Positions 39,173 through 64,000 of a stretch of DNA of 64,000 nt are shown piece by piece. Position 1 is the stretch's first letter, and each line of letters begins with the position of its first letter. Position numbers and translations under genes: made by a program. The notes beneath the pieces were generated by a model that saw only the letters and a list, made by a program, of their open reading frames with translations, did not search any database and was not told the origin of the DNA. This stretch comes from Pseudofrankia inefficax (GTDB lineage Bacteria; Actinomycetota; Actinomycetes; Frankiales; Frankiaceae), in assembly GCF_000166135.1 (NCBI RefSeq), contig NC_014666.1:3720001-3784000 (forward strand), written 5' to 3'.

Positions 39173-39176
<4 letters not shown>
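34323..39176 (-). CDS. Type I modular PKS, module 2: KS-AT-KR-ACP
   Basis: A 1617-residue single-module PKS. A 21-residue leader and docking helix ([18 protein letters not shown]) precede KS (Cys about 234), AT (GHSVGG about 689, HAFH about 794: malonyl-type, though the usual Glu after GHSxG is Gly), KR (TGGTGGLG about 1174; FSSVAG and a Tyr in [12 protein letters not shown] in the loop region, B-type) and ACP (Ser about 1495 in GGFDSL). It adds an unbranched beta-hydroxy unit. The ATG at 39176 overlaps the TGA of the upstream loading-module gene (ATGA), so the two proteins are made in coupled fashion. The C-terminal tail ([19 protein letters not shown]) is a typical acidic docking end. Confidence 0.95.
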
Positions 39177-49141
<9,965 letters not shown>

Positions 49142-49513
49142 AGAACGTCGTGCCCCCTCGCGGTCAACCAGGCCCCGGCCGAAATGCCAGGATGTCGATT
49201 CGGGCCGCCGTGCCGGCTGTTTCGCCCCCGTCGCCCGGACGGCCGGCCGCGGCCGGCGTAGGCCACACCGACGGTTTGGCGAGAAGCCGTCAACGGCCGC
49301 GCGGCCCGCCTCGACTATTCGTCGAAGGGGGCGCGATGGTGAACCCCTATCTTTTCCCCCTATCGGGGGGATGTGACGGGGGTTACTCCACCGGCCCGGC
49401 GGGAATCGGCGATCTGGCGGCGCCGTTACCGTTGGCTCGCGTGAGATCGGCAGAGGTGGCGCCGGACGCCACCCGCCGGCTATAAATCGATTGGCAGAAA
49501 GGAACGTGTTCCT
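49142..49513. promoter_or_regulatory. Divergent promoter region of the PKS operon and type II thioesterase
   Basis: This 372-nt gap should hold the main PKS promoter. CCCCTA occurs twice (49344-49349 and 49357-49362), the second inside a CCCCC-TATC-GGGGG dyad (49356-49369), matching the TAGGGG array upstream of ccr. On the minus strand TTGACG (49293-49288) could be a -35 box for the PKS genes, but no clear -10 follows. On the plus strand TATAAA (49481-49486) could serve the thioesterase gene, which has its ribosome site AGAAAGGA at 49496-49503. All assignments are by eye. Confidence 0.45.
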
Positions 49514-50326
49514 ATGCCGCCGCCCACCAGGCAGCCACCGCCTGAGCCCGACCGCTGGATCCGTGGTTTTCATCGCGCGCCGGACGGCGCCCGTCAGCTG
49601 GTGTGCTTTCCGCACGCCGGCGGGGGCGCCAGTTACTTCTTCGCCGCGTCACGGGCGCTGGCGAACGCGCGGCCGCCCGTCCAGGTGCTGGCGGCGCAGT
49701 ATCCCGGCCGCCACGACCGCCGCCACGAGCCGGCCTTCGAGCGGGTCGACGCGCTCGCCGACGCCACGGTGGCCGCGCTGCTCGCCGGCGGCTGGCTCGA
49801 CCCGGCCCGGCCGCCCGCCCTGTTCGGCCACAGCATGGGCGCGGTCGTCGCCTTCGAGGTCGCGCGGCGACTGGAGCGGGACGCCGGCCTCGTCGCGGCC
49901 GGCCTGTTCGTCTCCGGCCGGCGCGCGCCGTCGACCCGGCGGGCCGAGCGAACCCACCTGCTCGACGACCGGGGCCTGGTGGACGAGCTGCGCAGGCTCA
50001 GCGGGACCGAGGGGGACCTGCTCGACGACGACGAGATCGTCGCCATGATCCTGCCGGCGGTGCGCGGCGACTACCGGGCCATCGAGACCTACCAGGCAGA
50101 CCCCAGTGCGCGGGTGAACGCGCCGGTCACCGCCCTGGTCGGGACCGACGACCCGCTGACCACGATCCAGGAGGCGGCGGCCTGGCGGGAGCACACGACC
50201 GCCGAGTTCGGGCTCCACGTGCTGCCGGGCGGCCACTTCTACCTCAACAGCCAGCTCTCAGCGGTCCTCGACATCGTCGCCGGCGCCGGCGTAGCGGTCT
50301 CCGCGCGACGCGACCATCGGGTATGA
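49514..50326 (+). CDS. Type II (editing) thioesterase
   Basis: A 270-residue alpha/beta hydrolase of the stand-alone TEII family that clears stalled or mis-primed acyl groups from carrier proteins of a PKS or NRPS. The FPHAGGGAS oxyanion-loop motif is at about 32-40, the nucleophile Ser107 lies in GHSMGA, the acid is in GTDDPLT (about 212) and the base His241 in GGHFYL. The ATG is set by AGAAAGGA 10 nt upstream. It is divergent from the loading-module gene and probably shares its control region. Such enzymes matter particularly for decarboxylating loading modules. Confidence is high. Confidence 0.94.
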   Translation: MPPPTRQPPPEPDRWIRGFHRAPDGARQLVCFPHAGGGASYFFAASRALANARPPVQVLAAQYPGRHDRRHEPAFERVDALADATVAALLAGGWLDPARPPALFGHSMGAVVAFEVARRLERDAGLVAAGLFVSGRRAPSTRRAERTHLLDDRGLVDELRRLSGTEGDLLDDDEIVAMILPAVRGDYRAIETYQADPSARVNAPVTALVGTDDPLTTIQEAAAWREHTTAEFGLHVLPGGHFYLNSQLSAVLDIVAGAGVAVSARRDHRV

Positions 50327-51002: not shown

Positions 51003-51182
51003 GCGCCGGAGGGTATTCGGGCGCGTCATTCCTGCCAGGTCCCGACCGTCGGGCCGGTGCCGCGCCGTGTTTTCCTCGTTGATTTCTCAACGAATGCTTC
51101 TCCATTCACGCGCCTCCTGACCCAGTCGCGTGCCGCTCTTCGAGCGCGGTGGAGAAGGCGCAGTGTCCTGGACATCTTCCCG

Positions 51183-51208
51183 CGCCGGGTTTCGGCCGGC
51201 GATTTTTT
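51183..51208 (+). terminator. Intrinsic terminator just upstream of the ABC importer (attenuator)
   Basis: Stem cgccgg (51183-51188) and ccggcg (51196-51201) with a 7-nt loop is followed directly by ATTTTTT (51202-51208). It sits between the leader peptide and the ATG at 51220, so it would cut off the importer transcript rather than end a gene. The sequence cccggcgc at 50912-50919 is complementary to 51182-51189 and could act as an antiterminator. Confidence 0.6.
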
Positions 51209-51219
51209 GTGGAGTACTG

Positions 51220-52866
51220 ATGCGTTCTAGACCTGTCCTGGCCGGTGCGGCCGCGTTGGCGGCCACGGCCGCGATGCTGCTCGCCGCGTGCGGCTCCGGG
51301 GGGAGCTCGGCGGCGGCGCCCGCCAGCCAGCCCCGCTCGGGGGGCAACCTCACCTACGCGCTCGACGTCGAGCCGCAGTGCTTCGACGCGGCGGTCAGCC
51401 CGCAGGACGTCACCGGGGAGGTGGATCGCAACATCCTCGACTCGCTGGTCTCCGAGGACACCAAGGGCACCTTCCACCCCTGGCTGGCCAAGTCCTGGGA
51501 CGTCTCCAAGGACCTGACGACCTACACCTTCCACCTGCGCGGCGGGGTGAAGTTCACCGACGGCACGGTGTTCGACGCGAACGCGGTCAAGGTCAACTTC
51601 GACCGGATCGTGGCGCCTACGACCAAGTCGCAGTACGCCTCCAACCTGCTCGGCCCGTACACCGGCACCAAGGTCATCGACCCCAGCACCGTCCAGGTCA
51701 GCTTCTCCAAGCCGTTCGCGCCGTTCCTGCAGGTGGCGGCGACGGCCTACCTCGGCTTCTACTCGCCTACCGCGATCAGGAACCACCCCGAGGGCTTCTG
51801 CGTCGGCGGCCCGTCCGCCGTCGGGACCGGCCCGTTCACCTTCACCAGCGCCACCAAGGGCCAGAGCATCCTGCTCAGCCGTAACCCGGCCTACAACTGG
51901 GGCCCGGCCGACAGCACCCACACCGGGCCGGCCTACCTGGACAAGGTGACCTACCGGATCCTGACCGAGGCGGCGACCCGGATCGGCTCGCTGACCAGCG
52001 GCCAGGTCGACGGCATCCAGTCCGTCCCGCCGTCGAACGTGGCCAGCCTGGCCTCGATCAAGTCGATCAACGTCTACAAGAAGGACGACCCGGGCGGCGT
52101 CTACAACCTCTACCTGAACGTCACCCGGCCGATCCTGTCCGACCAGCGGGTGCGCCAGGCCATCCAGCGCGGGATCGACATCGACCAGAACGTCAAGACG
52201 GTCTACTTCGGCCAGTACAGCCGTGCCTGGAGCCCGATCTCCCCGGCCACGCCCAGCTACGACGCGAAGCTCGAGGGCAGCTGGCCGTATGACCCGGCGC
52301 TGGCCAACAAGCTGCTCGACGAGGCCGGCTGGACCGGGCGGGACTCCGCCGGCTACCGGACCAAGGACGGCCAGCGGCTCACCGTGGTCTGGCCCTCGAC
52401 GCCCTCGGCCAGCAACCGTGACTCCCGTGACGTGCTGGCCCAGGCGATCGTCGCCGACCTGAAGAAGATCGGCATCGAGATCTCCCGCCCGAGCTTCGAC
52501 GTCACCACGTACCTCACCAAGGCCTACGCGAGCGAGTTCGACGTCCTCGACACGTCCTGGGCCCGCTTCGACCCCGACGTCCTGCGCCTGTTCTTCAACA
52601 GCGCGAGCCGTGGCTCGAACGGCCAGAACGGGGCCTTCCTGGCCGACGACCAGGTCGACCAGTGGACGAACGCCGGCGCGCAGACCCTGGACCCCACGGT
52701 GCGTAACGACGTCTACGCGAAGACCCAGCAGCGGGTCATCCAGCTCGCCGCGGACGTGCCGGTCTACGTCCCGCGGTCGCTGTTCGCCACCCAGTCCAGC
52801 GTGCAGGACCTGGCGTTCTCGCCGAACGCCTGGCCGGAGTTCTACGGAACCTGGCTGTCCAAGTGA
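51220..52866 (+). CDS. ABC transporter substrate-binding lipoprotein, peptide/nickel family 5
   Basis: A 548-residue extracytoplasmic receptor. Residues 1-22 are a signal peptide and Cys23 follows a LLAAC lipobox, so the protein is a membrane-anchored lipoprotein. The mature part has SBP_bac_5 hallmarks such as TFHLRGGVKFTDGTVFDA (about 105-122) and a long two-lobed body. The family binds oligopeptides, glutathione, nickel chelates or other amphipathic solutes; the ligand cannot be read from sequence. The ATG at 51220 has GGAG 5 nt upstream and gives a proper signal peptide; an upstream in-frame start at 51130 would bury it. The next gene starts within its stop codon (GTGA). The gene is probably under attenuation control by the leader region. 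Confidence 0.92.
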   Translation: MRSRPVLAGAAALAATAAMLLAACGSGGSSAAAPASQPRSGGNLTYALDVEPQCFDAAVSPQDVTGEVDRNILDSLVSEDTKGTFHPWLAKSWDVSKDLTTYTFHLRGGVKFTDGTVFDANAVKVNFDRIVAPTTKSQYASNLLGPYTGTKVIDPSTVQVSFSKPFAPFLQVAATAYLGFYSPTAIRNHPEGFCVGGPSAVGTGPFTFTSATKGQSILLSRNPAYNWGPADSTHTGPAYLDKVTYRILTEAATRIGSLTSGQVDGIQSVPPSNVASLASIKSINVYKKDDPGGVYNLYLNVTRPILSDQRVRQAIQRGIDIDQNVKTVYFGQYSRAWSPISPATPSYDAKLEGSWPYDPALANKLLDEAGWTGRDSAGYRTKDGQRLTVVWPSTPSASNRDSRDVLAQAIVADLKKIGIEISRPSFDVTTYLTKAYASEFDVLDTSWARFDPDVLRLFFNSASRGSNGQNGAFLADDQVDQWTNAGAQTLDPTVRNDVYAKTQQRVIQLAADVPVYVPRSLFATQSSVQDLAFSPNAWPEFYGTWLSK

Positions 52867-53849
52867 CCACTGGCACGGTCGAACGGATCGAAGCCCCGGC
52901 CGGCGGCGCCCTCTGGCGCCGCCGGCTGTGGCCGGTCGTGGCCCGCCGGCTGCTCGGGGCGGCCGCGGTCGTCTACGGCGCGGCCACCGTCGCGTTCGTC
53001 GCCCTGCAGCTCATCCCCGGCGACGCGGTGACGATCATGATCGGGTTCAACAACGCGGTCTCGCCGCAGGTCCGGGCCCAGATCCAACACGACCTCGGGC
53101 TGAACCACCCGGTGATCGTCCAGTACTTCCAGTACCTCGGGCACCTCGCCCACGGTGACCTCGGCACCTCCTACCAGCTGAACCAGTCGGTGGCCTCGCT
53201 GATCGGCGCGCAGTTCTGGCCGACGTTCCAGCTGATGCTGGCGGCGGTGGGCGTCGCCGTACTGCTGGCTCTGATCTCGGCGCTCGGCACCGCCAGCCGC
53301 CGGGGCGGCCTGCGCGCGGTCGTCGACGTCGTCGAGCTGGTGCTCGTCTCCACCCCGACGTTCTGGCTCGGCATCCTGCTGCTGACCGCGTTCTCGTTCC
53401 GGCTGCGGCTGTTCCCGGTGGCCGGCGCGCAGAGCGCGGCCTCGCTCGTCCTGCCGGCCCTGACACTCGCCCTCCCGATCGCCGGCGTGCTGGCCCAGGT
53501 GCTGCGGGAGGGCCTGGAGACGGCGCTGGGACAGCCGTTCGTGATCACCGCACGGTCCCGGGGGCTGCGGCGCTCGGCCGTGCGGCTGCGCCACGCGCTG
53601 CGCCACGCGGCGGCGCCGCTGGTGACCCTGGTCGGCTGGCTGAGCGGGAGCCTGCTGGGCAACGCGGTCCTGGTCGAGTCCGTCTTCGGCCGGCCGGGGA
53701 TCGGCGCGCTGACCCTGGAGGCCGTCCAGAACAAGGACATGCCCGTGGTCATGGGCGTCGTGTTCGTCTCCGCGGTGGCGTTCGTCGTCATCTCCACCCT
53801 GGTCGACCTGCTCTACCTGCTGATCGACCCACGACTGCGGACGGGGTGA
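52863..53849 (+). CDS. ABC transporter permease, DppB/OppB type
   Basis: A 328-residue inner-membrane subunit with six predicted helices. The N-terminal helix (LLGAAAVVYGAATVAFVALQ) is followed by the periplasmic loop and LGLNHPVIVQYFQYLGHLAHGD, a standard DppB segment. The cytoplasmic EAA-type loop reads TARSRGLRRS (about 225-235), where the ATPase docks. The GTG start overlaps the stop of the binding-protein gene by 4 nt. It forms a heterodimeric channel with the following permease. Confidence 0.92.
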   Translation: MTTGTVERIEAPAGGALWRRRLWPVVARRLLGAAAVVYGAATVAFVALQLIPGDAVTIMIGFNNAVSPQVRAQIQHDLGLNHPVIVQYFQYLGHLAHGDLGTSYQLNQSVASLIGAQFWPTFQLMLAAVGVAVLLALISALGTASRRGGLRAVVDVVELVLVSTPTFWLGILLLTAFSFRLRLFPVAGAQSAASLVLPALTLALPIAGVLAQVLREGLETALGQPFVITARSRGLRRSAVRLRHALRHAAAPLVTLVGWLSGSLLGNAVLVESVFGRPGIGALTLEAVQNKDMPVVMGVVFVSAVAFVVISTLVDLLYLLIDPRLRTG

Positions 53850-53853
53850 GGCC

Positions 53854-54759
53854 GTGACAGCGGTGGAGCGCTCCCTGGCGGAACTCGCGCCGCGGCCGGG
53901 ACCAGCGGCGCTGGGCCGGCGGCGCGGCCGGGACCGGGACGTGCCCGGCCTGGCCTTCGCGGCGTCGGCGGCCTTCCTGGTCCTGATCGCGCTGCTGATG
54001 ATCGCGCCGGGGCTGTTCGCCGGCCACTCGCCGACCGCGACCGACCCGGTCAACGCGCTGCGCGGGCCGAGCGGCACCCACTGGTTCGGGACGGACGCGC
54101 TGGGCCGCGACGTCTTCGCCCGGGTCGTCTACGGCGCGCGGCCCTCACTGATCGTCGGCTTCGGTGCCACGGTCTTCGCGGTCGTGGGCGCGACGGCCCT
54201 CGGCCTGACGGCCGGGATCGGGGGCCCGGCCCTGGACCAGGTGCTCATGCGGGTGGCCGACGTCCTGCTCGCCCTGCCGCCGCTGCTGCTCGCCCTGCTG
54301 GCGGTGGCGGTGCTGGGCCACGGCCAGGTCAACGTGATGGTGGCGGTCGCGATCGCGTTCGTGCCCGGCTACGCCCGGGTGGTGCGGGCCGAGACGCTGG
54401 TCGTGCGCCGCTCCGGCTATGTCGAGGCGGCCGTGGGCCTTGGGCTGCCCCGCTGGCGGCTGGTCGGGCGCCACGTCCTGCCGAACACGCTGGGCCCGCT
54501 GCTCGTGCTGGCCACGGTGGGCTTCGGCTCGGCCCTGATCTACGCCTCCAGCCTGAGCTTCCTCGGCCTCGGCGCGCAGCCCCCCTCCTCCGAGTGGGGC
54601 CTGGCGCTGTCCACCGGCCGCAACTACTTCTCCGTGGCCTGGTGGGTCGCGGTCTTCCCCGGGCTGGCGGCGACCCTGACCGTGATCGCCCTCAACGTGA
54701 CCGGCCGGCGCGCGCGAGCGCGGTTCACCCGCCGGCCGCAGGGAGGTGACCTGGCATGA
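53854..54759 (+). CDS. ABC transporter permease, DppC/OppC type
   Basis: A 301-residue permease partner. The hallmark HWFGTDALGRDVFARVVYGAR motif region follows the first helix (about 69-88), and the EAA loop is YVEAAVGLGLPRWRLVGRH (about 189-207). It starts with GTG 4 nt after the DppB-type stop, and the ATPase gene starts inside its own stop codon (ATGA). Five to six membrane helices are visible. Import direction is inferred from the lipoprotein receptor in the same operon. Confidence 0.92.
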   Translation: MTAVERSLAELAPRPGPAALGRRRGRDRDVPGLAFAASAAFLVLIALLMIAPGLFAGHSPTATDPVNALRGPSGTHWFGTDALGRDVFARVVYGARPSLIVGFGATVFAVVGATALGLTAGIGGPALDQVLMRVADVLLALPPLLLALLAVAVLGHGQVNVMVAVAIAFVPGYARVVRAETLVVRRSGYVEAAVGLGLPRWRLVGRHVLPNTLGPLLVLATVGFGSALIYASSLSFLGLGAQPPSSEWGLALSTGRNYFSVAWWVAVFPGLAATLTVIALNVTGRRARARFTRRPQGGDLA

Positions 54760-56699
54760 CCGGCCGACCACTGGTGACCGAGCCCGAGGCCGCGCCGGCC
54801 GGGACCGTCCTCGGCGAGACGCTGCTGGAGGTCGACGGCCTGGACGTGACCTTCCGGACTCCGGCCGGCCCGGTCCGCGCCGCCCGCGACGTCTCCTTCA
54901 GCGTCCGGCGCGGCGAGTGCCTGGCCATCGTGGGGGAGTCCGGGTCGGGCAAGAGCGTCACCCTGCGCGCCCTGGTCGGGCTGACCGGCGGGTCGGCCGT
55001 CCTCGGCGCCCGCACGCTCTCCTTCGACGGGGAGGACCTCAGCGGCGCCGGCGAGGCGCGCTGGCGGTCGGTGCGCGGCCGGCGGATCGGCCTGGTCCTG
55101 CAGGACGCGCTGGTCTCGCTCGACCCGCTGAGGACCGTCGGCGCCGAGGTCGCCGAGACGCCCCGGGTGCACCGGCTCCTCGACCGGCGAGCGGTGCCCG
55201 AGCGGGTGCGCTCGCTGCTGGCGGCCGTCGGCATCGACGACCCCGACCGGCGCGCGCGCCAGTACTCCCACCAGCTCTCCGGCGGGCTGCGGCAGCGCGC
55301 ACTCATCGCGTCGGCGATCTCGGCCGATCCCGAGCTGCTGCTGGCCGACGAGCCGACCACCGCGCTGGACGTCACGGTCCAGGCGCGGGTGCTCGACCTG
55401 CTGGGCGGCTTCCGCGCCGACGGCACGGCGATCGTCCTGGTCAGCCACGACCTGGCCGTCGTCGCGGGGCTGGCCGACCAGGTCGCCGTCATGTACGGCG
55501 GCCGGATCGTCGAACACGGGCCGACCGCCGCCGTGCTCGGCCGCCCGCGCCACCCGTACACGCGCGCCCTGCTGGCCGCCGTGCCGGTCGGCCGTCCCCG
55601 CGGCAGTCGGCTGTCGGCCCCGGCATCGGTCGCGCCCGGACCGCCCGCCTCGCCGGACGCCTGCCCGTACGCCGCCCGCTGCCCGCTCGCCGACGACCGC
55701 TGCCGCACCAAGCTCCCGCCGCTGTCGGGGCCCGCCGTGGCCGCCGGTCCGTCAGCCGCCGGGTCGTCAGCCCCAGGCTCGGCGGTCCCGGTCGAAGCCG
55801 GTCACGAGACGCTCTGCTGGTACCCGGGCCGGGTCCCGGCCGCGCTCGCCGAGCCTGTCGTCCCGGTGCCGTCGGCCCGCGAGCCGGACCGTTCCGGCCG
55901 GCCGCTGGTCGAGGTGGCCTCGATCAGCAAAGGGTTCCGTGACCCCGGCGGCGAGCGTCGGCTGGCGGTGGACGACGTGTCGTTCACGCTCAGCCCGGGG
56001 GAGGCACTGGGAGTCGTCGGCGAGTCCGGATCGGGCAAGACGACGGTCGCGCGCATCGTCCTGGGCCTGGTGGAGCCGGACGCAGGCTCGGTCCGGCTCG
56101 ACGGCGAGGCGTGGAGCGGGCGGCCCGAGGCCGAACGGCGGCCGCGGCGCCGACGGGTCCAGGCCGTCTACCAGGACCCGTTCGGCTCCTTCGACCCCCG
56201 GTACACCGTCGAGAAGATCATCGGTGAGGCGGTGGCGACGGCCGGCGTGCCACGCGGCCCGGCCCGCCGCGAGCGGGTCGCCGAGCTGCTGGCCGCCGTC
56301 GGGCTGCCCGACGACCTGGCCGGGCGGCGGCCGCTGGAGCTCTCCGGCGGCCAGCGCCAGCGGGTGGCGATCGCGCGGGCGCTGGCCCCGTCCCCCGACA
56401 TCCTCGTCTGCGACGAACCCGTGTCCGCCCTGGACGTCTCGGTACAGGCGCAGATCCTGGACCTGCTCCTCGGGCTGCGGCACGACACCGGGGTGGCCCT
56501 GCTCTTCATCTCCCACGACCTCGGCGTCGTGCATCACGTGAGCGACCGGTTGCTGGTCATGAAGGACGGCCGGGTCGTCGAGTCCGGCCCCACCGAACGG
56601 ATCTTCGCCAGGCCCGAGCATCCCTACACCCGGGAGCTTCTCGCCGCCGTGCCGCGCCCGCCGCGGGCGGACGAGGCGGCGGGAACGGCCGGCCGCTGA
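54756..56699 (+). CDS. Fused tandem ABC ATPase, DppD-DppF type
   Basis: A 647-residue protein with both importer ATPases in one chain. First half: Walker A GESGSGKS (about 59-66), signature LSGGLRQR, Walker B LLLADEP. After it comes a Cys-bearing oligopeptide-transporter C-terminal motif (CPYAARC, DDRC, ETLC). Second half: Walker A GESGSGKT (about 424), signature LSGGQRQR, Walker B ILVCDEP, and a truncated end HPYTRELLAAVP. Both ATP sites look intact. Fusion of D and F subunits is fairly common in actinobacteria. It completes the four-gene importer, whose genes all overlap or nearly touch. Confidence 0.93.
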   Translation: MTGRPLVTEPEAAPAGTVLGETLLEVDGLDVTFRTPAGPVRAARDVSFSVRRGECLAIVGESGSGKSVTLRALVGLTGGSAVLGARTLSFDGEDLSGAGEARWRSVRGRRIGLVLQDALVSLDPLRTVGAEVAETPRVHRLLDRRAVPERVRSLLAAVGIDDPDRRARQYSHQLSGGLRQRALIASAISADPELLLADEPTTALDVTVQARVLDLLGGFRADGTAIVLVSHDLAVVAGLADQVAVMYGGRIVEHGPTAAVLGRPRHPYTRALLAAVPVGRPRGSRLSAPASVAPGPPASPDACPYAARCPLADDRCRTKLPPLSGPAVAAGPSAAGSSAPGSAVPVEAGHETLCWYPGRVPAALAEPVVPVPSAREPDRSGRPLVEVASISKGFRDPGGERRLAVDDVSFTLSPGEALGVVGESGSGKTTVARIVLGLVEPDAGSVRLDGEAWSGRPEAERRPRRRRVQAVYQDPFGSFDPRYTVEKIIGEAVATAGVPRGPARRERVAELLAAVGLPDDLAGRRPLELSGGQRQRVAIARALAPSPDILVCDEPVSALDVSVQAQILDLLLGLRHDTGVALLFISHDLGVVHHVSDRLLVMKDGRVVESGPTERIFARPEHPYTRELLAAVPRPPRADEAAGTAGR

Positions 56700-56930
56700 C
56701 CACGGCTGACCGGGCTCCGGCGCCGGGGCGGCGGTCGACGACGTTCCGGAGTCCGGTCGGCGACCGGGTCGGCGCGGCTAGTGTCAACGGAACGAAAACC
56801 ACTCCCCGTCCGCGCGCGGTCGCGCAGGCGGAGGAGCCGAAGCGCCCAGATGAGGTCTGACGATGAACTTCGGTGGCTGTCGCCGTCGCCCCTGACGTGT
56901 GAACTGTCGGCGACAACGGAGTGGGAAGCC

Positions 56931-59795
56931 ATGCGTGAGATCAGGACTGTCCGTGCACCTCGCTCGTCCGGGCCGCGGACGGGGGAGGCCGCCGCGCTCA
57001 TCGAGCGCGTGGGCCCCATCGCCGAGCTGGACCGGATGCTGGCCGCCTGTTTCGCCTACCAGGGGGGCGCCGCCTTCGTCAGCGGCGCGGTCGGCTGCGG
57101 AAAGACCGAGCTGCTGAACGCGTTCCTGGGCCGGGCCGGCCAGGCGGGCGCCACGGTGCTGACGGCCTCGGCGTCGGCGCAGGACTCCGCGCCGGGCTCG
57201 GTCCTGCGGGCGCTGGCCGCTGGCCTGGGCGAGCAGGTCACCGGGCCGGCGGAACCGGCCTGGAACCGGCCAGACCCGGGCCGCTCGGCGCCCGAGACGC
57301 CACGGGAGCTGGGCGAGCGCCTGCTGGCCGCCGCCCTGCGCCGGCCCCTGGTCATCGGGGTGGACGACGTCCAGCACGCCGACGAGATCTCGCTGCGCGG
57401 CCTGCTCCAGCTCGGCGCGCGGGCCCGCTCGTCGCGGCTGCTGATGGTGGTCACCGGGCCCGAGGCGCCGCCGGGCGCCCCGAGCCGGATCGCCCGGTGG
57501 CGCGCCGACCTGACCCGGGCGACGAGCACCGTCGAGGTACCGGTCGCGCCGCTGACCCGGATGGGGATCCTCGAGGCGCTGACCCGCCAGCTCGGCTTCG
57601 GCCCCGCGCGGGCGCTCTCGGCCTGCTTCGCGCGCCTCAGCGGCGGCAACCCGCTGCTGGTACGCGCCCTCGCCGAGGACTACCTGGTGGAGGACCTCCG
57701 CCTCGCCGGGCCCCACGGCGGCGACCCGGACGTCCAGGACGGCGCGGCGGACCCGAGTGCCCCGCGGTCCTTCGACCCTCCCGGCCATGGAGCGTTCGGC
57801 CGCGCCGTGCTGACCTGCCTGCACCGCGCGGACGACCGCCTGCTCGCCACCGCCCGCGGCGCGGCCGTCCTGGAGACCGCCGGCTCGCCCGCGCTGTTCG
57901 CCGGCCTGCTGGAGATCGGCCTGACCGAGACGGGCGCGGCCCTCGACACGTTGGCCTCGGCCGGGGTCATGGTCGGCGGTGGCTTCCGGCATCCGGTCGC
58001 GCGGGCGGCCGTCCTGGCCGACCTGCCGCTGGACGAGGCCGTCGTCCTGCACCGCCGGGCGGCCCGGCTGCTACGCCGGTCCGGGGCCGCCCCCCGGCAG
58101 GTCGCCGCGCATCTGGTCGCGGCGGGGGAGGCTGACGAGTCCTGGTCGGTCGACCTGCTGCGCCGCGCGGCCACCGACTCGGCCGACGACGACGTCGCGT
58201 TCGCGGTCGAGTGCCTGCGGCTGGCCGAGCGGGCCAGCGCCGACGGGCGCGAGCGCCTGTCGATCCTGATCCAGCAGAGCCGGGTCGAGTGCCGGGTCAA
58301 CCCGGGCGGGGCGATCCGCCGGCTGCCCCGGCTGACCCGGGCGATCGAGGCGGGGGAGGTCAGCGACCGCGACCTGGTCCCGCTGGTGCGGGCACTGGCC
58401 TGGCACGGCCGGGTCGACGAGGCGGCGGCGGCGCTGCGGCGCCTCGACCGCGACGACGTGGACCTCGACGAGCGCGGCCACACGGAGCTGGCGGTGGCCA
58501 GGAACTGGCTGCGCTACTCCCATCCGGGCCTGCTGGTGGCGGCCGGGACGGTTCGGGCCGGCCACGGGCCCCGGCCGGCGGACCCCCACCCGACCCGCGC
58601 GGCCCAGGCCGTCGTCCTGCTGGGCACGGTCCTCGCGGCCGGCCCCGACGAGGCGACCGTGCCCGTCGCCGACGCGCTGCTGCGGGAGATCCCGCCGGCC
58701 GACGAGACGATCTGCCCGCTGGAGAGCGCCCTGGTCAGCCTGGTCTGCGCGGACCGGGCCGACCTGGCGGCGGCGCACTGCGACCGGCTGATCGGGGAGG
58801 CGGACCGGCGCGGCTTCCCGACCTGGCGCGGGCTGCTGGCCGGGCCGCGGGCCGAGATCGCGCTGCGCCAGGGCGACCTGGCGGCCGCCGAGCGCTTCGC
58901 CCGGTCCGCGCTGGACCTGATCCCGGCCTGGAGCTGGGGAGTGGGCATCGGCCTCCCGCTGTCCGTCCTGCTGCGGGTCGGCGCCAGGACCGGGACCGAC
59001 CCGGCCGGCGCGCGCGCGATCCCCGTCCCGGACGAGATGTTCCAGACCCGCTACGGGCTGAGCTACCTGTACGCCCGGGGCCAGCGCCATGCCGCCGTCG
59101 GACAGCCGCACGCTGCCCTGGACGACCTGCTCACCTGCGGGCGCCTCATGGTGCGCTGGGGTCTCGACCTGCCGGCCTTCCTGCCCTGGCGGCTCGACGC
59201 CGCCGCGGTGCTCACCGAGCTCGGCCGGCTGGCCCAGGCCCGCGACCTGCTGACCGAGAACCGGGGCCGCCCGTCGGCGACCAGCCCGCGGGTCCGGGGC
59301 CTGGCACTGCGGGTGGAGGCGTCGCTGGTCGAGCGCCAGCGCCGGTCGGGGCTGCTGCGTGAGTCGGTCCGGCTGCTCGGCGTGGCGGGGGACCGGCTGG
59401 AGCTGGCCCGGGCGCGGGAGGACCTCGACGCGCTCGACCGGGCCGCGGGCTCGCCCCGCCGCGGCAGCACCGGCCGGCCCGGGCTGGCCGCGCCACCCGT
59501 CGGCGCGGCACGCGAGCCGGGTTCCGCGCGCCTCTCGTGGCCGGCGCCCGAGCCGGCGGCCCCCACCGGCCCGGCCTTCGTTCTCACGGTGGAGGGCGAC
59601 AGCCAGGCCGGCGGCGGTGAGCTCAGCACAGCCGAGCTCCAGGTCGCCTCCCTGGCCGCGACCGGCCATTCGAACCGGGAGATCGCCCGGCGGCTCTACA
59701 TCACCGTCAGCACGGTCGAGCAGCACCTGACCCGGACCTACCGCAAGCTGCGGATCCGCGGCCGGGCAGAGCTGCCGGTCTTCCTGGGCGTCTAG
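56931..59795 (+). CDS. LuxR-family LAL regulator 1 (large ATP-binding)
   Basis: About 954 residues from the ATG at 56931, the usual size for a LAL pathway activator. Walker A is GAVGCGKT (about residue 53-60), Walker B VIGVDDV (about 142), followed by a long helical repeat region and a C-terminal LuxR HTH (LSTAELQVASLAATGHSNRE, then TVSTVEQHLTRTYRKL). Proteins of this type (PikD, RapH, FkbN and similar) activate macrolide PKS genes. Start choice: GGGAAG precedes 56931; ATG 56850 (after GGAGGAG) and GTG 56781 are possible longer starts that add only Arg-rich sequence. It likely acts on the PKS/thioesterase and ccr promoters. Confidence 0.9.
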   Translation: MREIRTVRAPRSSGPRTGEAAALIERVGPIAELDRMLAACFAYQGGAAFVSGAVGCGKTELLNAFLGRAGQAGATVLTASASAQDSAPGSVLRALAAGLGEQVTGPAEPAWNRPDPGRSAPETPRELGERLLAAALRRPLVIGVDDVQHADEISLRGLLQLGARARSSRLLMVVTGPEAPPGAPSRIARWRADLTRATSTVEVPVAPLTRMGILEALTRQLGFGPARALSACFARLSGGNPLLVRALAEDYLVEDLRLAGPHGGDPDVQDGAADPSAPRSFDPPGHGAFGRAVLTCLHRADDRLLATARGAAVLETAGSPALFAGLLEIGLTETGAALDTLASAGVMVGGGFRHPVARAAVLADLPLDEAVVLHRRAARLLRRSGAAPRQVAAHLVAAGEADESWSVDLLRRAATDSADDDVAFAVECLRLAERASADGRERLSILIQQSRVECRVNPGGAIRRLPRLTRAIEAGEVSDRDLVPLVRALAWHGRVDEAAAALRRLDRDDVDLDERGHTELAVARNWLRYSHPGLLVAAGTVRAGHGPRPADPHPTRAAQAVVLLGTVLAAGPDEATVPVADALLREIPPADETICPLESALVSLVCADRADLAAAHCDRLIGEADRRGFPTWRGLLAGPRAEIALRQGDLAAAERFARSALDLIPAWSWGVGIGLPLSVLLRVGARTGTDPAGARAIPVPDEMFQTRYGLSYLYARGQRHAAVGQPHAALDDLLTCGRLMVRWGLDLPAFLPWRLDAAAVLTELGRLAQARDLLTENRGRPSATSPRVRGLALRVEASLVERQRRSGLLRESVRLLGVAGDRLELARAREDLDALDRAAGSPRRGSTGRPGLAAPPVGAAREPGSARLSWPAPEPAAPTGPAFVLTVEGDSQAGGGELSTAELQVASLAATGHSNREIARRLYITVSTVEQHLTRTYRKLRIRGRAELPVFLGV

Positions 59796-59932: not shown

Positions 59933-62900
59933 ATGACGACGGCCCCGGCGAGCCGGAACCCGGCCCGGTCGCCCTGGCGCCCGGCCGAGGAGCCCCGCGG
60001 CCGCGGGCGCAGCGCCGCTGGCCCGTGCGCCGGGGCCCGGCTGGCCCCGCCGCGGACCTCGCACGTCCCGGCCCGCGACCGGCGCCTGACCGGCGATCTG
60101 CCCGACCGGGGTGAGGCACTGGCCCGGCTGTTGGCCGCCTTCGCGGACAGCCAGGCCGGCCGCGGCAGCGTCGTCGTCATCTCCGGCGGCCCTGGCTCGG
60201 GCCGTTCCACGGTTCTGGCGGCGCTGCTGGAGCGGGCCGGCGGGACGGGCGCGACCGTCCTCACGGCCTGCGGCTCGGCGGCCGCCGTCGGGCCGCCCGG
60301 GGACGCTCTGCGTCAGCTCTCGCGGGACGCCACGCGGGCGGCGGCGCTGGCCCGAGCCGGCAAGGACGCGACCGGGCGGCCAGTAGTGGCCGGCCTGGCC
60401 GAGGCCCCGCCGCTGCCCGCGCTGGTCGAGGCGCTCGGCGCCCGGATCCGCGCGCTCGCGGCCGCCGCGCCGGTGGTCGTCGCGGTCGACGACGTCCACC
60501 GCGCCGACGAGGCGTCGCTGCGCGGCCTTTCCCTGCTCGTGAGCCGGCTGGCCACCGACCGGGTGCTGCTGGTCGCGACGGTGCTGGACGGCGCGGTGAC
60601 CGAGCCGTCCCGCGCCGGCTGGCACACCGACCTGCTGCGCCATCCGCGCTACCGCCAGGTCTGGCTGCCCGGGTTGTCCCCGGCCGGGGTGGCGACCGTC
60701 CTCACCCGCCGCCTAGGCCCGGCCGCCGCGGCGGCCGCCCCCGGCTGGTGGGCGTTCAGCGCCGGCAACCCCACCCTGCTGCGGGCGCTGCTCGACGACG
60801 CCCGCGCCGCCCCGAGCCCGACCGGGGCACCGGAGGCGAACGGCGCGGCCGTCGGCCCCGAGCCGGGGCCCAGATACGTCGAGGCGGTCGCGCGCCTGGT
60901 GCACGCGGCCGGTGGCGAGGCGCTGGCCGTGGCGCGGGCCGTCGCGGTGCTCGGCGCGTCAGGAGCCTCGGCCGGCCTGGCCCACCAGGTGCTCGCGGAC
61001 CGCGCAGGAGCGGGCGCCGACCGCCGCGAGGCCGCGCTCGGCGCCCTCGCCAGGGCCGGCCTGATGGACCGCGACGGCTTCCGGCACCCGGCGGTCCGCG
61101 CGGCCGTGCTGGCGGACATCCCGGCCTCCGCGCGCCGCGAGCTGCACCGGCGGGCCGCCGAGGTCCGGTACCTCGCCGGCGCGTCGGCCGACGAGATCGC
61201 GGTGCACCTGGTCGCCGCCGGCTGGGCCGGGGAGCGCTGGTGCCTCGACGTGCTGCGCCGCGCGATCGAGTCGGCCCTGCGTGCCGACGACGTCGCCGGT
61301 GCCCTGGCCGCGCTGGATCTGGCCGATGTCACCACGACGGCGTCGCGGGAGGCCGACGCGGACGACCAGCGCGCGGAGTTCACCCTGCTGCGCCTGCGGG
61401 TGGCCTGCCGGGATGACGGCGCCGAGGTGATCGACCGGCTGGACCCGCTGCTGCGCGCCCTGCTGGCCGGCCGGCTGGGCGGCGCGCACGCCGTGACGCT
61501 GGCCCGGCTGCTGATGTGGTTCGGCCGGGAGGCGGACGCCGAGCGCGCGTTGGCCGAGCTGGAACGCCGCCGTGACCGGCTCGACCCGCGCTCGGCGCTC
61601 GGCCTGGAGCTCATCCACGACTATCTGCCGGTCAACCACCCGCGGCTCGCCGTGGCCAGCGGCTCGGCCCGGATGACCCGCCGGACCGCCGCCGGCGTGG
61701 CCGACGGCCAGACGGCCGCCGCGGTCGACGCCCTGCGCCTGGCTCTGCGGGGCGAGGCCGACGACGAGACGGTGCGGTCGGCCCAGCAGGTGCTCCAGGC
61801 GACGCTGCTCGACGACCAGTCCGTCGGGTCGGTCGAGTGGGCGGTGCTGGCCCTGGCCTACGCCGGGCAGCTGGAGCTGGCCGTCTCCTGGGCCGACCGC
61901 TACCTGGCCGAGGCCACCCGGCGGGGCAGCCGGGCCTGGCAGGCGCTGATGGCGGGGGTCCGGGCGGAGATCGCCGTCCACCAGGGCGACATCCGCGCCG
62001 CCGGCGAGAACGCCCGACTGGCGCTGACCGTCGTCCCAGCCTGGTCGTGGGGCGTCGGCATCGGGCGCCCGCTGTCGGCACTGCTGATGGCCGCCGCGGC
62101 CAGCGGCGCGCCGCTGGACGACGCCGACGTGCCGGCGGTGCCCGAGGCCATGTTCCGGTCCCGGTTCGGTCCCCAGTTCCTGCGCGGCCGCGCGAGCCTG
62201 CACGCGGCCCGGGGCCGCCTGCCGGCCGCGCTCGATGACCTGATGACGGCCGGGCGCCTGCTGGTCGAGTGGAACATCGACCAGCCCGGGTTCGTGCCAT
62301 GGCGGGTGGACGCCGCGCACGTGCTGGTCCGGCTCGGCCGCGTCGACGAGGCGCGGGCGCTGGCCGAGCAGCATCTCGCCCGCACGCACGGGGGCCGGCT
62401 GCGCGGGATCGGGCTGCGGGCGCTGGCGGCCACCCTGGAACCGCCACGGCGGCTGCCGGTGCTGCTCGCGGCGGTGGACCTGCTCGGCGCCCACAGCGAC
62501 CGGCTCGAGCTGGCCGGAGCGCTGGCCGACCTGAGTGAGGCGTACCTGGTGGCCGACCGGTCGGCCCGCGCCCGCGCGGTCGCGCGGCGGGCGATGCTGC
62601 TGGCCGGCGAGCTGGGGGCCGAGCCCCTGCGGTCACGGCTGGCCGGCGCGTACGACTGGGAGGACGGCTCGGTGCCGCCCCGGTCCGGCCCGGAGGCCGG
62701 CCGCGGCCCCGAGACGACGCCGGATCTGACGCCGCCGCGTGACCCCGGCGCCACGCCGTCGACGCGCGCCGGGCTGGCCGCGTTGTCCCCGGCTGAGCAC
62801 CGGGTGGCCACGCTGGCCGCCAGCGGGCGAACCAATCGGGAGATCGCCGCCAGCCTGTTCGTCACCGTCGGCACTGTCGAGCAGCACCTGACCCGGGTCT

Positions 62901-62956
62901 ACCGCAAGCTCGGCGTCCGGGGCCGCGCCGACCTGCGCGCCCGCGCGTCCGCCTGA
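59933..62956 (+). CDS. LuxR-family LAL regulator 2
   Basis: A 1007-residue LAL paralogue of the preceding gene: it shares the AWSWGVGIG-PLS--L and LPAALDDLMTAGRLL-type segments and the C-terminal LuxR HTH (LSPAEHRVATLAASGRTNRE, TVGTVEQHLTRVYRKL). The nucleotide-binding P-loop reads GGPGSGRST (about 85-93), with Arg in place of the invariant Lys; Walker B (VVVAVDDV) is intact. ATP hydrolysis may therefore be lost or altered. GGAGGAGGG (59915-59923) gives a strong ribosome site for the ATG, and an AT-rich stretch at 59877-59905 upstream is a likely promoter. Tandem LALs often act as co-activators or a hierarchy. Confidence 0.9.
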   Translation: MTTAPASRNPARSPWRPAEEPRGRGRSAAGPCAGARLAPPRTSHVPARDRRLTGDLPDRGEALARLLAAFADSQAGRGSVVVISGGPGSGRSTVLAALLERAGGTGATVLTACGSAAAVGPPGDALRQLSRDATRAAALARAGKDATGRPVVAGLAEAPPLPALVEALGARIRALAAAAPVVVAVDDVHRADEASLRGLSLLVSRLATDRVLLVATVLDGAVTEPSRAGWHTDLLRHPRYRQVWLPGLSPAGVATVLTRRLGPAAAAAAPGWWAFSAGNPTLLRALLDDARAAPSPTGAPEANGAAVGPEPGPRYVEAVARLVHAAGGEALAVARAVAVLGASGASAGLAHQVLADRAGAGADRREAALGALARAGLMDRDGFRHPAVRAAVLADIPASARRELHRRAAEVRYLAGASADEIAVHLVAAGWAGERWCLDVLRRAIESALRADDVAGALAALDLADVTTTASREADADDQRAEFTLLRLRVACRDDGAEVIDRLDPLLRALLAGRLGGAHAVTLARLLMWFGREADAERALAELERRRDRLDPRSALGLELIHDYLPVNHPRLAVASGSARMTRRTAAGVADGQTAAAVDALRLALRGEADDETVRSAQQVLQATLLDDQSVGSVEWAVLALAYAGQLELAVSWADRYLAEATRRGSRAWQALMAGVRAEIAVHQGDIRAAGENARLALTVVPAWSWGVGIGRPLSALLMAAAASGAPLDDADVPAVPEAMFRSRFGPQFLRGRASLHAARGRLPAALDDLMTAGRLLVEWNIDQPGFVPWRVDAAHVLVRLGRVDEARALAEQHLARTHGGRLRGIGLRALAATLEPPRRLPVLLAAVDLLGAHSDRLELAGALADLSEAYLVADRSARARAVARRAMLLAGELGAEPLRSRLAGAYDWEDGSVPPRSGPEAGRGPETTPDLTPPRDPGATPSTRAGLAALSPAEHRVATLAASGRTNREIAASLFVTVGTVEQHLTRVYRKLGVRGRADLRARASA

Positions 62957-63012: not shown

Positions 63013-63798
63013 TCAGCCGCCGATGACCTTGCGGTAGGCGCGCGGGCCGTCGTAGTCGTTGACGGCGTAGTGCCACGTCGCCTGGTTGTCCCAGATCACG
63101 AAGTCGCCGGGCTTCCAGCCGAAGCTGACGGTGTAGTTGGGCGACGAGGCGTGCGCGAGCAGGAAGGGCAGCAGGGCCTCGCCCTCGGCCGGGCTGACGC
63201 CCGTCAGCCTCAGCGCCGAGGCACTGAGGAAAAGGCCCTTGCGGCCGGTGTGGCGGTGCGTGCGCACGACGGGGTGCTCGACGGTCTCGGTCACCGGCGG
63301 CCGGTTGTAGGTTCCGTCGCCTGGATCGGCGTTGTAGACGGCGTTGACCGATTCCAGCAGCTGCTTGAACGGCTCGGAAAGCCCGTCATAGGCCGCCTGG
63401 AGGTCGGCCCAGAGTGTGCGCCCGCCGATTTCCGGAACCACCTGGTAGGTCAGGGACTCGATGGTGAACGGCGGGTTGCGCCAGGTACCCCCGACGTGCC
63501 AGGCCGCGGCGTTTCCCGCCTTCTCCAGGTTGAAGACGTACACAAGCCGGTTGTCCTCGTGGCGGTACAGCCACTGGGGGTGGTCGAAGGGCTCGTCGAA
63601 GATCCGGACGGCCCGCACATGCGCGTCGGGCGCGAGGTCCTGGTCACGGAAGACGAGGACCTTGTGCTTCCAGAAGGCCGCGCGCAGGGCCTCGGCGGTG
63701 GCGTCGTCGACGCCGCCGGCCAGGTCGACGCCGACGACCTCGGCGCCGAGGACGGGGCTTGCCGGGCGAATGTCGTGCGCGATGCGGGTAGCGGTCAT
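63013..63798 (-). CDS. TauD/TfdA-family Fe(II)/2-oxoglutarate enzyme with H-x-G in place of H-x-D
   Basis: A 261-residue protein that aligns well with taurine dioxygenase: GxxVxGVDL near the start, HPxVRTH--TG at 175-185, and WDNQATWHYAVNDY (236-249) with the distal His243, then Arg253/Arg256 for 2-oxoglutarate. The proximal metal motif, WHTDVTF in TauD, is WHVGGTW here: His101 is kept but the iron carboxylate is Gly103. Fe/2OG halogenases have Gly or Ala at this place so that a halide can bind iron, so this may be a halogenase; an inactive or repurposed enzyme is the alternative. The ATG at 63798 has GAGGGGG upstream and is preferred over TTG at 63834. It is convergent with LAL 2 at the cluster edge. 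Confidence 0.85.
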   Translation of the reverse strand: MTATRIAHDIRPASPVLGAEVVGVDLAGGVDDATAEALRAAFWKHKVLVFRDQDLAPDAHVRAVRIFDEPFDHPQWLYRHEDNRLVYVFNLEKAGNAAAWHVGGTWRNPPFTIESLTYQVVPEIGGRTLWADLQAAYDGLSEPFKQLLESVNAVYNADPGDGTYNRPPVTETVEHPVVRTHRHTGRKGLFLSASALRLTGVSPAEGEALLPFLLAHASSPNYTVSFGWKPGDFVIWDNQATWHYAVNDYDGPRAYRKVIGG

Positions 63799-64000
63799 AG
63801 TGACCCCCTCAGCGTGGGATGTGATGTCTGCCAAACGGGTCAGGCTCGTCGGCTGTCGCCAAGCGCGATACCAGCCCGGTACGGTCCCTGGAAAGAAAAA
63901 CGGGAGTATCGCGCCCGGTCGGCACGCGGACTTCCGGAATCGAAATCCGAATACGCGGAAGGCCGGCCCGGTGATCGGGTCGAGAATGCCGTTCGGCGTT
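63799..64000. other. Upstream region of the TauD-like gene to window end
   Basis: No gene is seen in these 202 nt. An A-rich patch (aaagaaaaacggg, about 63892-63905) is the only compositional feature; promoter elements for the TauD-like gene should lie here but were not identified. Confidence 0.4.

Follow-up and report, generated by a model that had tools for sequence, protein, structure and literature searches.

Gene and predicted fold of the H-x-G protein

The window, a stretch of 64,000 nucleotides of the Pseudofrankia inefficax genome (NC_014666.1, positions 3,720,001 to 3,784,000), carries near its right-hand end a gene for a TauD-like protein (Table 1). Genes of the SDR and MFS types lie upstream on the same strand, and peptide/nickel-type ABC genes lie on both sides. 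The two ABC importers that flank the gene are on the forward strand, one at 51130-56699 and the other just beyond the window (L099:12342-18357); the binding protein of each is nearest to NCBIfam TIGR04028, below the cut-off of that family. Two tandem forward-strand genes (56781-59795 and 59933-62956) separate the ABC transporter genes from the TauD-like gene; each encodes a LuxR-type regulator of about 1000 residues with an AAA_16 domain at the N-terminus and a GerE domain at the C-terminus.

The iron motif of the product reads W100 H101 V102 G103 G104 T105 W106, and the distal histidine is H243. A TauD-fold protein with the segment WHVGGTW, in which Gly103 replaces the Asp ligand and His101 and His243 are present, is what the sequence-only reading had described, and both the assignment and its numbering are correct. 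The alignment with TauD through the core, said there to be free of gaps, contains HMMER gaps of 11 and 2 residues around query positions 165-172 and of 1 residue near position 80. The protein belongs to the TauD family (Pfam PF02668, 171.5 bits for a cut-off of 27), where it ranks thirteenth by score among the 16 matches of the host genome, and it falls below the taurine dioxygenase equivalog NF007104 (169.3 bits for a cut-off of 313).

The TauD fold is predicted with confidence by an AF2 model of the window protein, the one of the 35 clade members that was modelled (pLDDT 94.4, pTM 0.91, alignment of 91 sequences). The best 50 of 285 PDB fold matches at E<=0.001 are TauD-family enzymes, including taurine dioxygenases, PlaO1, AtsK, RdpA, AAD-1 and their kin. 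For the predicted model the best Foldseek E-value is 5.3e-27, with an identity of 31-35% to the TauD and AtsK structures.

Table 1 Position of the H-x-G gene and of the residues aligned with the active site of TauD.
Feature	Position	Strand	Basis
CDS, H-x-G TauD-like protein, 261 aa	63013..63798	(-)	ATG at 63798, TGA at 63013-63015
gaggggg, likely ribosome-binding site, 5 nt upstream of ATG	63804..63810	(-)	position relative to ATG
H101-V102-G103, putative proximal iron His and Gly replacing the Asp ligand	63490..63498	(-)	alignment
H243, putative distal iron-binding His	63070..63072	(-)	invariant alignment column
E114, candidate second-sphere or replacement carboxylate	63457..63459	(-)	invariant in clade
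R253, aligns with TauD Arg266	63040..63042	(-)	R in 35/35 and 81/81
K257, aligns with TauD Arg270	63028..63030	(-)	K in 35/35 of clade
H73, aligns with TauD His70	63580..63582	(-)	H in 35/35
T128, aligns with TauD Thr126	63415..63417	(-)	T in 35/35 and 81/81

Loss of the carboxylate ligand is fixed in one clade

Relatives were drawn from whole genomes and from named genomes (best 80 of 557 kept), giving 117 distinct proteins: 35 in one clade (55-100% identical), a distant Streptomyces lineage (L115/L031, 41%) and 81 others. The clade occurs in Frankiaceae, Streptomyces, Mycobacterium, Pseudonocardia, Actinomadura and other taxa. Judged by MAFFT columns, position 103 is Gly in all 35 clade members and in L115, and Asp in each of the 81 other TauD proteins; with G103 in 35/35, the clade lacks the 2-His-1-carboxylate triad H-x-D...H. 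The longer motif H-x-G-G is shared by 35/35 clade members and L115/L031 and by 0/81 of the others, and all four Gly codons are in use at position 103 among the 36 H-x-G sequences.

A tree was built from 80 of these proteins, namely the full set of 36 H-x-G sequences and 44 of the 81 H-x-D sequences, and the columns of residues 100-115 were left out of it. The H-x-G proteins form a single clade (SH-aLRT 99; 96 with L115), with one state change on the tree; L115 is a long branch, and its placement is less sure. Ka/Ks is 0.08-0.24 in the 22 pairs compared. The sequence-only reading had named an alignment and a tree as the check on its proposal, and an outcome in which close homologues all carry H-x-D as the one that would speak against it. 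The close homologues instead carry H-x-G without exception (35/35 against 0/81).

The H-x-G clade protein is under purifying selection and constrained, because H-x-G-G is clade-wide, the tree contains one change, Ka/Ks is low and all four Gly codons occur. Apparently the carboxylate ligand was removed once and has been kept off across several actinobacterial families. From its sequence, the protein looks like a live, working enzyme with a two-histidine iron site. A lone mutation is ruled out by the presence of H-x-G in 35/35 clade members, and a pseudogene by the open frame together with the Ka/Ks values; the dead enzyme that had been offered as the alternative is accordingly unlikely, given a clade-fixed motif under purifying selection.

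Within the window's own family, 16 of 35 genomes have a match, one each at E<=1e-45, and the named kin are Frankia, Pseudofrankia and Protofrankia. A sample of the class has matches in 19 of 393 genomes, namely the same 16, the L115 genome and two with further clade members. Among 392 genomes of the genus of G071 (Streptomyces, judged by its kin), 9 have matches. In the family of G313 the count is 7 of 301; two of these matches (L128 and L129) are H-x-D relatives and the other five are clade members. A search of 72,556 plasmid records with the window protein gave no match at E<=1e-30, and the L031 protein, the only query used against viral contigs, has none there.

Residues around the iron and substrate sites

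Both histidines are invariant in 35/35 clade members. The C-terminal Arg residues listed by the sequence-only reading stand in part: R253 is present at the Arg266 column, and the Arg270 column holds K257. The latter column is Lys in the whole clade (35/35) and Arg in 80 of the 81 other TauDs, with a gap in the remaining one. Thr126 of TauD, which we take to have a role in 2OG binding, corresponds to T128. Arg266 of TauD holds the C5-carboxylate of 2OG (PMC7949033), Arg270 holds the sulfonate of taurine (PMC7949033, PMC9304159), His70 makes a hydrogen bond to taurine and Asn95 belongs to the network around its amine (PMC9304159). The Asn95 column is occupied by Ala97 in 35/35 clade members. Because H73 and K257 align with His70 and Arg270 and Asn95 is replaced by Ala97, the place for an anion, e.g. 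a sulfonate, seems to be kept and the amine site gone. The exchange of Arg270 for Lys, plus its loss in L115, could also mean a quite different substrate.

The further residues fixed in the clade are G104, F111, E114, S192 and W242. Among the 81 other proteins, S192 is found in 3, W242 in 6 and F111 in none. E114 is Glu in 35/35 clade members and in L115, and the column is Ser, Thr or Ala in 81/81 H-x-D relatives. Going by the topology of TauD, the strand that bears E114 presumably neighbours the strand that bears K257.

Luciferase-like and transporter genes near the H-x-G genes

The surroundings of 34 loci were compared over about 8 to 10 kb on each side, less at contig ends. Luciferase-like monooxygenases amount to 44 genes in 20 of the 34 loci (1.41 per 19 kb), counted with an HMM that was built from seven Pfam-confirmed genes of these same loci and favours them. 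Around other TauD-family genes of the window's genome, 4 such genes lie in 3 of 12 stretches (0.32 per 19 kb) that take in 14 of its 15 remaining TauD-family matches, and 8 arbitrary stretches of the same genome contain 0. A first look with PF00296 gave 2678 candidates in about 238 Mb from 30 genomes, a loose rate of ~0.21 per 19 kb, as no more than about 51 per genome were scored. The excess of luciferase-like genes near H-x-G genes is clear in direction and inexact in size, given the dependence among kin loci, controls from one genome and the self-trained HMM. The types that NCBIfam names among them are the NtaA/DmoA family, the CE1758 family, the MsnO8 family and the SsuD-like type. The loci lacking a luciferase-like gene number 14 of 34 and include the window's own, where neither luciferase-like nor Ssu-like genes were found.

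Searches of the 34 loci with tblastn detect NtaA-like genes in 14, peptide-type binding proteins in 9, CE1758-like genes in 8, SsuC-like and SsuB-like genes in 8 each, GST in 7 and old yellow enzyme in 4. The SsuB-like and SsuC-like genes share the same 8 loci, and the pair is absent from the other 26 of 34 at the cut-offs used. In the window's own genome the pair is found in 4 of the 12 stretches beside other TauD-family genes and in 0 of 8 arbitrary stretches. Because a rate of 8/34 loci is no higher than 4/12 stretches at other TauD-family genes, the linkage to SsuBC shows a TauD-like setting and nothing special to the H-x-G clade.

In the fullest arrangement, that of L141, a gene for an NMT1-type binding protein comes first, followed by those for an SsuC-like permease (210 bits) and an SsuB-like ATPase (249 bits), whose best match is 'aliphatic sulfonates'. 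The H-x-G gene starts 70 bases further on, and after it come an unassigned frame and a gene for an SsuD-like monooxygenase (247 bits). The SsuC-, SsuB- and SsuD-like scores are all below the curated cut-offs of NCBI, hence the suffix '-like', and the NMT1-type binding protein has no NCBIfam match at 1e-40. The same four genes recur in L148 at 91-96% identity, and the two loci are near-copies; the complete linkage with an SsuABC-type transporter and an SsuD-type gene is seen in this near-copy pair. Outside it, the SsuC-like proteins are 28-57% and the SsuB-like proteins 42-59% identical. In the genomes of both L141 and L148 a second TauD-family gene lies 7-9 kb off, and the extra TauD of L141, like that of L138, has the motif WHTDVTF. 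A sulfate permease-type gene is located near the H-x-G gene in L143.

The family scans of neighbours were run on chosen genes, some of which are unrelated (a kinase, a RecD-like helicase, a cellulase, an acetyl-CoA carboxylase-like protein, a catalase) or have no Pfam match. Taken together, the genes that recur nearby suggest catabolism or the scavenging of sulfur and not a polyketide cluster.

Two further gene types occur in smaller groups of loci. A GST-type gene adjoins or lies near the H-x-G gene in the 7 loci noted above, L019 (9012-9962) and six further Frankiaceae loci. Actinobacteria mostly use mycothiol, and a GST-type gene is odd there. An old yellow enzyme-type gene is directly upstream of the H-x-G gene in L102 (7381-8655), L130, L101 and L131, a subset of the Frankiaceae loci that has no luciferase-like gene.

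The polyketide synthase of the window

The sequence-only reading had placed the gene next to a type I PKS. The closest PKS frame, at 39173-49615, is 13.4 kb from it, with the peptide/nickel-type ABC transporter and the two LuxR-type regulators in between. The PKS frames of the window comprise KS, AT, KR and, partly, DH domains. With the window KS as the query, 35 loci yield one partial KS-like match (136 aa, 43%) within about 8-10 kb of the H-x-G gene, or less where a contig ends. Windows of this size are too short to reach a PKS as distant as the window's own, and eight other genomes were therefore extended by ~20 kb on each side, in which no KS is present; none is found either in 20 kb more on the far side of the window's own genome or in 20 kb of G003. 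Of the natural-product cluster types, the search covered PKS, by its KS domain. As far as tested, the PKS link is incidental. A role in PKS tailoring is weakened, with no conserved KS near the H-x-G gene.

Comparison with known Fe/2OG enzymes

The working of Fe/2OG oxygenases is understood above all from TauD, their archetype. TauD (1gqw, 1os7, 3pvj) and AtsK (1oih) share with the H-x-G protein the fold, both histidines, the 2OG anchors corresponding to R253 and T128, the His at the place of H73 (His70 in TauD) and a positively charged residue where TauD has Arg270. The H-x-G protein differs from them in the replacement of the Asp ligand by Gly, of Asn95 by Ala and of Arg270 by Lys, in Gly at the Val102 position and in the new E114. 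PlaO1 (7qtd), presumably an enzyme of the phenalinolactone pathway, has the same fold and matches the sequence best of all solved structures (E 4.5e-38), but its motif is the normal W-H-T-D.

The residue loss itself has precedents in other families. SyrB2, WelO5 and BesD, which belong to other Fe/2OG subfamilies than TauD, resemble the H-x-G protein in having H-x-G/A instead of H-x-D. H-x-G/A serves as a marker of Fe/2OG halogenases (PMC12871659), and for BesD an origin from a hydroxylase by loss of the carboxylate has been proposed (PMC10187165). Human AspH binds its iron through two histidines, lacks a carboxylate ligand and hydroxylates; a water molecule in the carboxylate site is held by D721 and the substrate, and the authors report no halogenation of that substrate (PMC13168262). 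The H-x-G clade, as judged from its alignment, is alike in having two histidines and no carboxylate. AspH is nevertheless a member of another family, its substrate consists of EGF-like domains, and D721 precedes the distal histidine by four residues, at a position that is Gln, Leu or Arg in the H-x-G clade. The three NCBIfam matches of the H-x-G protein at E<=1e-5 include no halogenase family, and the best 50 of 285 PDB fold matches at E<=0.001 include no halogenase. In the open-access literature, the titles and abstract openings among the matches listed mention neither a TauD-fold halogenase nor the H-x-G clade.

Proposed function and alternatives

The reading we tentatively prefer, at a probability of roughly 0.42, is that of a two-histidine Fe/2OG oxygenase of TauD fold acting on a non-taurine sulfonate or a similar anion. 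Iron would be held by H101 and H243, as the alignment suggests, and 2OG would be anchored by R253 and T128. Water may occupy the vacant Asp site, where a nearby group, most plausibly E114, would probably hold it as D721 does in AspH. Reaction of O2 and 2OG would generate a ferryl species that oxidises a small anion, the substrate, which H73 and K257 would bind. The likeliest role would be to free sulfur, or a different heteroatom group, from an organosulfonate other than taurine or a compound resembling one, and many members would act beside flavin monooxygenases and importers. Because the window's own locus has no luciferase-like or Ssu-like neighbours, the substrate is one that we infer.

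The retained site could also be read as that of a TauD-fold radical halogenase, in which the Gly would leave a place for chloride or bromide and a haloferryl would transfer the halogen to a substrate carbon. The marker motif H-x-G/A is there and fixed, with a second Gly adjoining it and the 2OG anchors kept, and BesD offers a precedent for a hydroxylase origin with loss of the carboxylate (PMC10187165). Yet AspH has the same site and is reported not to halogenate its substrate (PMC13168262), an invariant E114, should it point at the iron, would sit strangely next to a halide, neither the NCBIfam matches (E<=1e-5) nor the best 50 fold matches include a halogenase family, and the PKS is unconserved while the recurrent neighbours look catabolic. 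The step from H-x-G to halogenase made by the sequence-only reading is thus unsupported, AspH sharing the site and hydroxylating with it; halogenation is possible, not favoured, and on balance improbable. A bolder form of it, in which no natural TauD-fold group before this clade was known to transfer halide or pseudohalide and the clade would be an open two-histidine radical halogenase that arose in sulfonate or xenobiotic catabolism and not in antibiotic biosynthesis, would be a long shot.

E114 admits another arrangement, in which this residue on the next strand would replace TauD Asp101 and the iron would again have two histidines and one carboxylate in a new geometry. Its invariance in the clade and L115 and its absence from 81/81 H-x-D relatives speak for such a moved carboxylate, but E114 may only form a salt bridge with K257 on what we take to be the neighbouring strand, and we consider this arrangement rather unlikely, though slightly less so than a halogenase. 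It is a speculation that the substrate might itself supply an iron ligand. A pseudoenzyme or repurposed binding protein, which would bind a metabolite and no longer use iron and O2, is doubtful in turn. The normal set of metal ligands is broken, the L115 lineage also has no Arg or Lys at the Arg270 position, and a paralogue in the window's own genome without Asp and distal His is kept in 4 of 35 family genomes. Unlike that paralogue, however, the clade has both histidines and the 2OG anchors invariant in 35/35, Ka/Ks is low, and AspH demonstrates that two histidines suffice.

Whichever way it works, the H-x-G clade is a natural test of what decides between hydroxylation and halogenation. If the protein is an oxygenase, the H-x-G/A halogenase flag gives false positives in a large family; if it halogenates, halogenases gain a new fold group whose scaffold has already been studied in depth.

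Divergent relatives

The lone Streptomyces lineage L115 (L031:7986-8801), at 41% identity, has H-x-G-G and E114 together with a His at the Arg270 position. Its surroundings contain tRNA synthetase-like, GNAT, NUDIX, permease and other genes, with no clear pathway among these.

Outside the window, the same genome encodes a TauD-family protein with the motif W-H-S-V and no distal His (L156:15384-16190; G000:C1:4287783-4288589). It is the paralogue present in 4 of the 35 family genomes; the other three copies are 75-96% identical, and 4/4 copies have neither the Asp nor the distal His. In contrast to the H-x-G clade, which keeps both histidines and the 2OG anchors, this paralogue probably has the TauD fold but no iron site; it is conserved all the same.
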